Shown here piece after piece: positions 21,088 through 24,045 of a stretch of DNA of 45,855 nucleotides (the stretch's first letter is position 1; each line of letters begins with the position of its first letter). The stretch spans positions 1-45,855 of the forward strand of contig JALHMG010000042.1 in NCBI GenBank assembly GCA_022844135.1. The letters are read 5' to 3'. This DNA is from Lysobacterales bacterium. Its GTDB lineage: Bacteria; Pseudomonadota; Gammaproteobacteria; Xanthomonadales; SZUA-5. Both the position numbers and the translations under genes were made by a program. The notes beneath the pieces are model-generated. The model saw nothing but the letters and a program-made list of their open reading frames with translations. It had not been told where the DNA came from and made no database searches.

Positions 21088-24045
21088 CTAACCCAGCAGC
21101 CTTTCGGTCCCCTCCAAAGCCACCAACTGCGCGCGAAAATCGGCGATGCGTTGGCGCTCTTGCTCGACGACGGCGACCGGCGCGTTGGAGACGAAGTTGG
21201 CGTTCCCAAGCTTGCCTTCGCACTTGGCAATCTCGCCCTTGAGTCGGGCGATTTCTTTTTTCAGGCGCGCGCGCTCGGCGTCGATATCGACCAGGCCGAG
21301 CAGCGGAATGAGCAGTTTCAACTCGCCGACCACCGCCGTGGCTGCGGCAGGTGCGGACTCATGGGCGCCGAGCCAGCGCATCGCCTCGGGCTCGATGCGG
21401 GCGAGGAACGCGATTTCGCCGCCGAAACGCTCGATGCGATCGCGGCTCGCTGCGTCGCCACCGGCGAGGATCAGTGGCACCAGTTTGCCCGGCGCGATAC
21501 CAAGTTCGCTGCGAATGCGGCGTAGTCCCGTCAGACAGGCTTTCAGCCAGTTGACGTCCTCCATCGCCGCTGCATCGTTCGGGAAGTCGGCGGCTTGCGG
21601 GTAGCGCTCGGCGGCGATGCTGGTGCCGACATCGCGTGGGCTCAGCTGCTGCCAGATTTCTTCGGTGATGAAGGGAATGATCGGATGCAGCGAACGCAAC
21701 ACGGCATCGAGCACCCAACGCAGCGTGCGTTGGGCGCTATCGCGGCGACCTGGATCGGTGCTGGCCAGCGCGGGTTTGCACAGTTCCAGGAACCAGTCGC
21801 AATATTCATTCCAGACAAAGTCGTACAGAGCCTGCGCCGCCAGATCGAAGCGATACTCGGCAATATGCTGATGCACGGCTGCGGTGGTCATTGCCAGCTC
21901 GCTCAGGATCCAGCGCTCTGCCGTGCTCAACGGGAATTCGATATCGCTGGCGCCTCCACGCGCAATGCCAACCAGCGCTGCGGTGGCGTCCACGCTTGCC
22001 ACGGCGCGCGCAACGTCGGGCAAGGTGTCGTCGCTCCTGTCGGCTTGTGCCAGCACAAAGCGCGCCGCGTTCCAGAGCTTGTTGCAAAAGTTCTTGTAGC
22101 CCTCGCAACGCTTCAAATCGAAGTTGATGGTGCGCCCGTGCGTGGCGAGCGCCGCGAACGTGAAGCGCAGCGCATCGGCGCCGACCGCCGTAATGCCGTT
22201 CGGATACTCCTTACGGATGCGCTTTTCGACTTTCTCGCGGACCTGCGGAATCAGCAAACTCACTGTGGACTTCTGCACCAGCGCATCAAGTTCAATACCG
22301 TCGATCAGGTCTAGCGGATCGATGGTGTTGCCCTTGCTCTTGCTCATCTTCTGACCTTCCGCATCGCGCACGATGGCATTGATGTAGACGGTCTTGAAGG
22401 GGACGCGGTTTTTCAGTTCCGCGAAGTGCGGCTCAAACTGGGTTGTTGGTTGTTGGTTGTCGGTTGTTGACGGAAGCCGGCCCACGAAATACGTGGTCGC
22501 CATCACCATGCGCGCGACCCAGAAGAAGATGATGTCGAAGCCGGTCACGAGCACTGAGCTTGGCAGGAAGCGCCGGAAGCTCGACCATTCGTCATTGGCG
22601 TTATCGGCATTGCCCGGCCAGCCCAGGGTCGAGAACGGCCAGAGCGCGGATGAGAACCAGGTGTCGAGTACGTCGTTATCCTGCGTGAGTTCGCCCACCG
22701 GCGGAACAGCCGCGTTGGCGCGCGCGTCGGCTTCGTCGAGGCCGACAAAAACGTTGCCGGCTTCATCGAACCACGCCGGAATCTGATGGCCCCACCAGAG
22801 CTGGCGACTGATGCACCAATCCTGCAGATTGGTCAGCCACTGCACGTAGGTGGTGGTCCAGTTTTCGGGTACGAATTTGATGTGGCCTTCGGTCACTGCG
22901 GCGAGTGCAACGTCGGCGATGGCGGTTTTGCCGCCCGGTCGGCCATCGGGCAACGTCTCGCGCGTCAGATCCAAAAACCACTGATCGGTGAGCATCGGTT
23001 CGATCACGGCCTCGGAGCGCTGACTAATCGGCACCGACAATTTGTGCGGCTTGGTCTCAACCAAGAGTCCTGCGGCCTCAAGATCGGCGAGCACACGCTT
23101 GCGCGCTTCGAAGCGATCGAGGCCCTGGTATGCATCGGGCGCGGACTCGTTGACCTTCGCGTCGAGGCTGAAAATGCTGATCAACGGCAGGCCGTGGCGT
23201 TGGCCCATCTGATAGTCGTTGAAGTCGTGGGCGGGCGTGATCTTGACGCAGCCGGTGCCGAATTCGCGATCGACATAGACGTCGGCGATCACCGGTATCG
23301 TGCGTCCAGTCAAGGGCAGCGTCAGTTGGTTGCCAACAAGGTGCGCGTAACGCTCATCCTCGGGGTGCACTGCTACCGCGAAATCGCCGAGCATCGTTTC
23401 CGGGCGCGTCGTTGCGACGACGACACCTTCGCCGCCATCCGCCGCCGGATAGCGGATCGACCACAAGTGGCCGTCCTTCTCGATGTTCTCAACTTCAAGA
23501 TCCGAGACTGCTGTTCCCAGTACCGGGTCCCAATGCACCAGGCGCTTGCCGCGGTAGATCAGGCCCGCGCGATACCAGTCGACGAACACGCGGCGCACTG
23601 CGGCCGACAGGCCATCGTCCATCGTGAAACGCTCGCGCGACCAGTCGCAGGAGGCGCCCAGGCGACGCATTTGTTCGGTGATGGTCGAGCCCGACTGCGC
23701 CTTCCATTGCCACACGCGCTCGATGAACGCGGCGCGGCCGAGATCGTGTTTGCTCTGGCCCAGTGCCGCAAGCTGGTTCTCGACAATTTTTTGTGTGGCG
23801 ATGCCGGCGTGATCGGTGCCGCATTGCCAGAGCACATCGCGCCCTTGCATGCGCTCGTAGCGGATCAGCAGATCCATGATCGTCTGCTGAAACGCGTGCC
23901 CCATGTGCAGCGTGCCGGTGACATTCGGCGGCGGCAACTGGATGCAAAACGGTTCGCCCCGGCCGCTCGGCGCGAAGTAACCGTTGCGTTCCCATTCGGG
24001 ATACCAACGCTGCTCGATGGCTTTGGGGTCGAAGCTCTTGTCCAT
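21088..24045 (-). CDS. valS: Valine--tRNA ligase, with an internal repeat-derived insertion
   Basis: ValRS (985 residues; E. coli 951) charges tRNA-Val and edits mischarged threonine. The start is ATG 24045 ([14 protein letters not shown]); about 89 upstream in-frame codons are rejected. The class I motifs are HMGH at residues 47-50 ([13 protein letters not shown]) and KMSKS at 566-570. The editing domain contains [11 protein letters not shown] and [16 protein letters not shown], and the C terminus is the coiled-coil tRNA-binding arm ending [10 protein letters not shown]. An extra segment of about 22 residues lies between YFVGR and RVPFKTVY (codons at 22411-22482). It includes [11 protein letters not shown], translated from a GGTTGTTGG-type repeat. 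All catalytic motifs are intact, so the enzyme should be active. Confidence 0.98.
22411..22482 (-). repeat. GGTTGTTGG-type repeat inside valS
   Basis: On the + strand 22440-22470 contains GGTTGTTGGTTGTTGG followed by TTGTCGGTTGTTGAC, the same TTGGTTGTTGGTT word as in the rplA-rplJ inverted repeat. The reading frame of valS is kept, and the region encodes a Gln/Thr/Pro-rich insert absent from ordinary ValRS at this place. Boundaries are estimated from remembered family alignment, so they may be off by several codons. Confidence 0.7.

Follow-up and report, generated by a model that had tools for sequence, protein, structure and literature searches.

The valS gene of the bacterium studied here raises the question of how a short DNA repeat that elsewhere resides between genes has come to encode part of an essential enzyme. 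The analysed stretch of DNA, hereafter termed the window, comprises 45,855 nucleotides of a Lysobacterales genome, which we refer to as G000. Its open frame at positions 21088-24045 on the minus strand translates into a valyl-tRNA synthetase (ValRS) of 985 residues including the start methionine. The gene is essential and its product charges tRNA with valine. The protein is 86-87% identical to ValRS of the same genus and matches the T. thermophilus ValRS 1gax, and a single full-length valS match is found in G000. A first-pass annotation had pointed to about 22 residues ahead of the KMSKS motif that would not be expected in this family. Relatives and the confidence of the predicted structure indeed delimit a longer loop, which exceeds that of most relatives by 24 residues between YFVG and RVPFKTVY (22408-22479, minus strand), but of these only 10-11 are encoded by a repeat array. 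The reading frame is open throughout valS including the array, and the frame of the host gene is kept, as had been proposed for an element residing in frame in an unbroken essential gene.

The array covers positions 22439-22469 on the plus strand and consists of the units TGGGTTG, TTGGTTG, TTGGTTG and TCGGTTG followed by TTG, with AACAACC as the unit on the sense strand and 11 residues encoded. It is detected by Tandem Repeats Finder at 22441-22469 with a period of 7 and 4.1 copies of the unit GGTTGTT, and the 28 bases of the loop that fit the heptamer best agree with it at 27 positions. The 13-mer TTGGTTGTTGGTT, already described in the first-pass annotation as common to valS and the spacer between rplA and rplJ (gene names as given there), is present exactly at both places (22446-22458 and 2527-2539), and with up to two mismatches it is found 10 times in the window compared to 0.55 times expected from shuffles. 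For the 11 residues of the array, valS uses synonymous codons that are rarer than is usual for the genome (P ~0.002). When these residues are recoded at random with synonymous codons, the observed period-7 regularity is reached at P ~0.0002, from which we conclude that the DNA repeat, and not the peptide alone, explains the sequence of the array. The heptamer TTGGTTG is free of stop codons in all six frames and every sense frame specifies the same cyclic peptide Q-P-T-T-N-N-Q; freedom from stops in six frames is common, as it is a property of about 50% of all heptamers and of 69% at a G+C content of 63%. At the RNA level, the valS array, which is a single, unpaired and non-palindromic arm, displays no structure beyond chance (z -0.07). 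An internal translation start was rejected, as no ATG is present in the sequence within 20 nt downstream of the array, and at the gathering threshold Rfam detects only one tRNA in the whole window.

In G000, the array belongs to a dispersed family. Up to one mismatch allowed, the 13-mer finds 366 matches in the genome, with overlaps counted, and a pattern aimed at the starts of arrays locates 50 places, in line with the many genomic copies anticipated in the first-pass annotation. A reversed-pattern control is useless for the 13-mer count, as it is for a search with three TTGGTT units, since these patterns read the same backwards. We have examined 61 arrays, drawn from two contig samples, the window and 40 further regions, with the 366 matches being known by position in part; at least four known places lie outside this set (C4:76467, C66:17388, C71:15020 and C74:9173). 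As judged by our own gene caller, which is based on codon usage, 57 of the 61 arrays are intergenic, three lie inside genes and one extends over a gene end near the end of a contig, consistent with the proposed dispersed and mostly intergenic family. Two of the three arrays assigned to genes (L211 and L214) are closely followed by an ATG and thus probably reside upstream of the true starts, which leaves valS as the only clear intragenic case, compared to about 51 of 61 that would be expected by chance from the coding fraction of 0.835 in the sample. Being a single event, this case does not allow a rate to be derived. A 400-kb sample of the same genome that was not selected for arrays contains four period-7 arrays, all of them intergenic. 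It also contains nine arrays of period 8, most of which belong to a second repeat family, and the heptamers are therefore not the sole short tandem family in this sample. The second family is mostly intergenic; its arrays are 34 bp long, comprise about four octamers CGAGGGCA and in some cases form convergent pairs, with examples at C1:192499-192532, C2:88927-88960, 89099-89132 and 152991-153137 of G000. Within the order, three consecutive TTGGTTS units occur sporadically, in 7 of 299 genomes and 4 of 85 genera.

The family members show a pronounced asymmetry with respect to neighbouring genes. When the arrays are read along the TTGGTT strand, 54 of 59 lie nearer to their 5' neighbour, with a median distance of 9 nt compared to 128 nt on the other side (one of 60 arrays has no gene on one side, so placement counts refer to 59). 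This neighbour presents its stop in 23 and its start in 36 of the 59 cases, where two of the latter have negative distances since the gene caller extended the genes through the array. Array sizes range from 2 to 17 units, with four units being the commonest (13 of 60) and TTGGTTG the dominant unit, and a convergent partner is found within 700 nt for 20 of 60 arrays. Such a pair constitutes the member between rplA and rplJ (2515-2607), whose two convergent arms (2520-2540 on the plus and 2575-2609 on the minus strand) fold into a hairpin with an RNA folding energy of -63.8 kcal/mol (z -8.4). The term inverted repeat used in the first-pass annotation thus describes this copy but not the one in valS, where a single arm is present. 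Several arrays of the AACCAAC type directly adjoin start codons (L205, 2511-2559; L207, 2455-2531; L231, 2507-2562; L235, 2486-2541). Words resembling a Shine-Dalgarno sequence precede 4 of 29 array-capped ATG starts compared to 58 of 143 background genes with ATG starts (Fisher P ~0.006), where the background starts are those of our own gene caller, and an AACCAAC-type array might possibly serve as a leader devoid of a Shine-Dalgarno sequence. With respect to a possible mobilisation by a RAYT transposase whose gene would be flanked by the repeat, G000 contains four Y1_Tnp matches, and in the three of these loci that were inspected (L274-L276, 3.2-3.3 kb each) no TTGGTT pair and no link to a transposase was found. 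One of them, the Y1_Tnp gene of L275 (G000:C18:90591-90935), is located beside repeated inverted units of the sequences TCCACCCTTCGCTATCACCGT and CGCCCCAACGGGGCG.

The properties of the encoded loop were approached by an AlphaFold2 model of ValRS based on 24 sequences, which was obtained with a mean pLDDT of 80 and a pTM of 0.75. Values of pLDDT below 50 are obtained for residues 413-418, 458-466, 478-482, 523-539 and 669-702. The stretch 523-539 corresponds to the heptamer-coded loop, which is thus predicted to be disordered, whereas residues 669-702 coincide with a linker that holds other repeats in the ValRS of relatives. The loop ahead of KMSKS had initially been described as a Gln/Thr-rich surface loop; because of its predicted disorder we infer a position at the protein surface.

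To place the array in time, we turned to the phylogeny of the loop. Among 80 named ValRS loci, two of which are on one contig, the loop is short in 71, as the first-pass annotation had expected of relatives; it carries a 16-residue extension in six loci and 1 and 7 extra residues in two, and the 24-residue form is found in a single locus, L031, from the same genus. The two loci sharing a contig (L043 and L045, NZ_MUNP01000077.1) are valS loci of Rhodanobacter sp. C06 located about 80 kb apart, which are equally similar to the query and might reflect a duplication or an effect of the assembly. The 16-residue extension in the six loci is of the type YFVGR-QADGSYEPRFAELKD-RVPF and resides at the same place as the loop in the window. 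Only the last 10 residues of latter are recognisably common with the 16-residue form, and by sequence comparison and tree this older part (22408-22437, minus strand) corresponds to YEPRFAELKD of the extension found in the clade; the array sits where the 16-residue form has its first residues and makes the loop longer. A tree calculated from 920 core columns for 36 rows (33 of them different) unites the rows with long loops in one group with a support of 96/92. G000 and its sister species G001 pair at 100/100, and their sister pair L032/L034 carries the 16-residue form without the extra eight residues. Tree and loop lengths together imply that 16 residues were gained first, and once, and that eight more were added on the stem of the genus.

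Over the best-matching 28 bases of the loop, the 27 matches to the heptamer found in G000 compare to 19 in G001 and to 9-12 in the 16-residue form, where the last range refers to nine rows, in some cases the same genome twice. The initial proposal that the whole insert constitutes the element therefore does not hold, as 16 residues of its added length are an old feature of the clade encoded by unrelated codons, and the observation that had been named as evidence against it, an old insert with diverged DNA, is made in part, for the 16-residue extension with its 9-12 matches. The loop DNA is identical in L031 and L112, both from G001, and the core CAACAASCGACARCCAR occupies the same codons in the loops of G000 and G001, while the loop peptide differs between the two species. 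The 19 matches in G001 exceed the maximum of 18 reached by any of 7,307 coding windows sampled from 400 kb of its genome, although the loop was chosen beforehand and its composition, with many Q, P, S and T residues, may partly explain the match. No perfect three-unit TTGGTT array is present in the whole genome of G001 and no period-7 array in the 400 kb, and we therefore regard its valS trace as decayed. Since a sister species shares the loop length and a degraded trace, the heptamer part is not recent.

Relatives contain in-frame inserts in valS at a few sites, which are built of other dispersed repeats. The following counts refer to overlapping whole-genome matches and include the copy in valS. 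L034 (genome G004) carries GGGACCC/GGGTCCC heptamers at two valS sites (334 matches with up to three mismatches), G002 contains GAGTCCC arms (35 matches, four of them within valS), L087 and L102 ATTCACC heptamers (119 and 15), L088 a palindromic repeat (267) and L074 GGGACTC-like arms (59). Repeats of the CCCTCTCCC type are found in valS of L037, L041, L053, L068, L084 and L099 with 46, 24, 8, 13, 9 and 19 matches, counts for which the backward control is not independent as the pattern is nearly symmetric (G011: 34 backward vs 46 forward). The inserts of L032 and L093 and one insert of L102 look like repeats as well. In Rhodanobacteraceae and relatives (L037, L041, L053, L068, L084, L088 and L099), REP-like palindromes reside in frame in the valS linker near alignment columns 655-660. 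In L032, a run of N near alignment column 480 lies within an inverted insert of GGGGGCA-type heptamers; the insert may have broken the assembly, or the run of N may be a masked stretch. A 396.5-kb sample of G004 contains 45 period-7 arrays, 37 of them intergenic, three over gene ends and five inside genes; period 14 accounts for 36 arrays and any other period between 4 and 15 for at most one. Three of the intragenic arrays are in valS and two in the gene of one 1112-residue protein, which by its sequence we take to be an RND-type transporter. In this RND-like gene (L277-L286 joined, G004:C1:31450-34785, minus strand), a GGGACCC/GGGTCCC pair is found in frame with its arms about 80 residues apart end to end. 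As a control we inspected ileS, for which 31 rows were aligned, four of them partial. Repeat-like inserts are present in 7 of 29 genomes (L254, L259, L267/L273, L269, L270, L271 and L272), and they are of the CCCTCTCCC or CCCTCCCC type and mostly inverted. In all six of the seven genomes that were searched, the pattern also used for the CCCTCTCCC-type repeats in valS is dispersed, with 7 to 44 matches. The idea that valS would be a unique sink for repeats is not supported in view of these inserts. The 29 genomes, all among those of the 80 loci, were picked mostly for inserts in valS and are not a fair sample, and the control therefore provides no rate.

Taken together, we consider it probable that a heptamer array entered, or grew in, a loop of valS that was already disordered and variable in length in the ancestor of the genus, and that it was tolerated there. 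By this account, the valS loop of the clade ancestor would have gained 16 residues once, and an array of AACAACC units (TTGGTTG on the other strand) would subsequently have inserted or grown within this loop in the ancestor of the genus. A net gain of 24 nt, equivalent to eight residues, would have kept the frame, and the stop-free repeat would have provided a polar and presumably disordered loop of the Q-P-T-T-N-N-Q type, which could be tolerated without a function of its own. The heptamers would have stayed recognisable in the species of G000, while substitutions would have worn them down in the sister species. Speaking against an insertion is the fact that a source array for the G001 loop is not visible today, given that this genome contains no perfect three-unit TTGGTT array, and no empty site was found in a very close relative.

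A less probable but still credible origin is slipped-strand expansion in place, where the ancestral loop would have held one or two AACAACC-like words to which units were added in frame, without arrival of any element. It would account for the variation of arrays in G000 from 2 to 17 units, for the one-armed valS copy, which differs from the paired element between rplA and rplJ, and for the core CAACAASCGACARCCAR at the same codons in both species. The loops of relatives with 16 residues, however, are devoid of heptamer-like words (9-12 of 28), the unit found in valS is also the prevailing one among the arrays of G000, and the same length in two diverged species implies that there was no net growth since their split; as a milder argument, the net gain of 24 nt does not correspond to whole 7-nt units, as 21 would.

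It appears unlikely that, in the lineage of G000 only, an intergenic copy had overwritten a pre-existing polar loop of equal length by gene conversion or recombination. The identical loop length in G000 and G001 and the presence of three-unit TTGGTT arrays in the former but not the latter genome would fit such an event, but the G001 loop contains a heptamer trace of its own that is stronger than in any of the 7,307 coding windows sampled from this genome. We regard it as similarly doubtful that the arrays constitute an actively spreading class targeted to gene borders, whose AACCAAC-type leaders next to start codons replace the Shine-Dalgarno sequence, with valS and ileS as preferred internal acceptors in which a repeat in the mRNA or a disordered linker would be useful, and with the valS array as a captured regulatory leader. 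Least plausible is a chance resemblance between the repeat and the DNA of an old, functional protein loop since, despite the 16 residues of added length that are an old feature of the clade, the synonymous codons of the other part are rare and follow a period-7 repeat (P ~0.0002), and the peptide differs between the two species and is predicted to be disordered.

The preferred account, with an array that entered or grew in a tolerant loop, has implications beyond this gene. The valS array shows that not only REPs and RPEs but also a non-palindromic tandem repeat can be turned into coding DNA of an essential enzyme, a step that is in this case datable against the older 16-residue loop. Several unrelated families of intergenic repeats have in-frame copies in the valS genes of Xanthomonadales relatives, and ileS contains repeat-like inserts as well; class Ia synthetases thus lend themselves to studying under which conditions repeat-coded loops are neutral. 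In genome annotation, such loops should be taken neither for conserved domains nor for sequencing errors.

The closest parallel to the family in G000 are the GGGAATC heptamers of Xanthomonas, which passages of the work of Rehm et al. describe as dispersed and mostly intergenic 7-nt tandem repeats, often in convergent pairs and with four units being the commonest (Rehm et al., 2015, PMC4692102). They are near to the gene on their 5' side, in whichever direction this gene points, with average distances of 28 vs 160 nt, and 11% (Xcc) and 7% (Xac) overlap with genes at least in part (PMC4692102). The G000 family resembles them in its period of 7, its mostly intergenic location, the nearer gene on the 5' side and its convergent pairs. 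It differs in that its unit TTGGTTG/TTGGTTC contains GG but not the GGG tracts of the Xanthomonas heptamers, which are able to form G-quadruplexes, and the consulted passages of PMC4692102 mention no named essential enzyme with such an in-frame loop. A heptamer of different character is the TAACTGA repeat of Beggiatoaceae, which according to passages of its description mostly resides a few nt upstream of start codons and in a minority of cases in coding sequences (MacGregor, 2015, PMC4679880). On one strand TAACTGA runs into a stop in each of the three frames, in contrast to TTGGTTG with its six stop-free frames. In the open-access literature searched, we found neither a TTGGTTG heptamer family nor a heptamer array encoding a loop of ValRS.

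Repeats inside genes are known from other systems. Many intragenic REPs were located in genes of replication and repair and, as passages of the same study report, also in tRNA synthetase genes of X. oryzae, E. litoralis and S. alaskensis, with flexible linkers or loops viewed by the authors as possible neutral sites (Di Nocera et al., 2013, PMC3733652). The valS array resembles these cases in being a normally intergenic repeat inside a gene, but REPs are, in the parts of the literature consulted, palindromes of 20-40 bp with GTAG or CGTC tags, whereas the valS array is tandem and non-palindromic. Rickettsia palindromic elements (RPEs) are about 150 bp long and nearly half of those of R. conorii lie in genes, as stated in passages of a review (PMC10969869). 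With them the valS array shares its nature as a dispersed repeat in a protein gene whose frame is kept, but while many in-frame copies in unrelated genes of one genome are typical of RPEs, in G000 a single one of the 61 arrays has a clear position within a gene. REPs and RPEs in genes and heptamers in coding sequences are thus already known, and to these a TTGGTTG array encoding a loop of ValRS adds a new variant.
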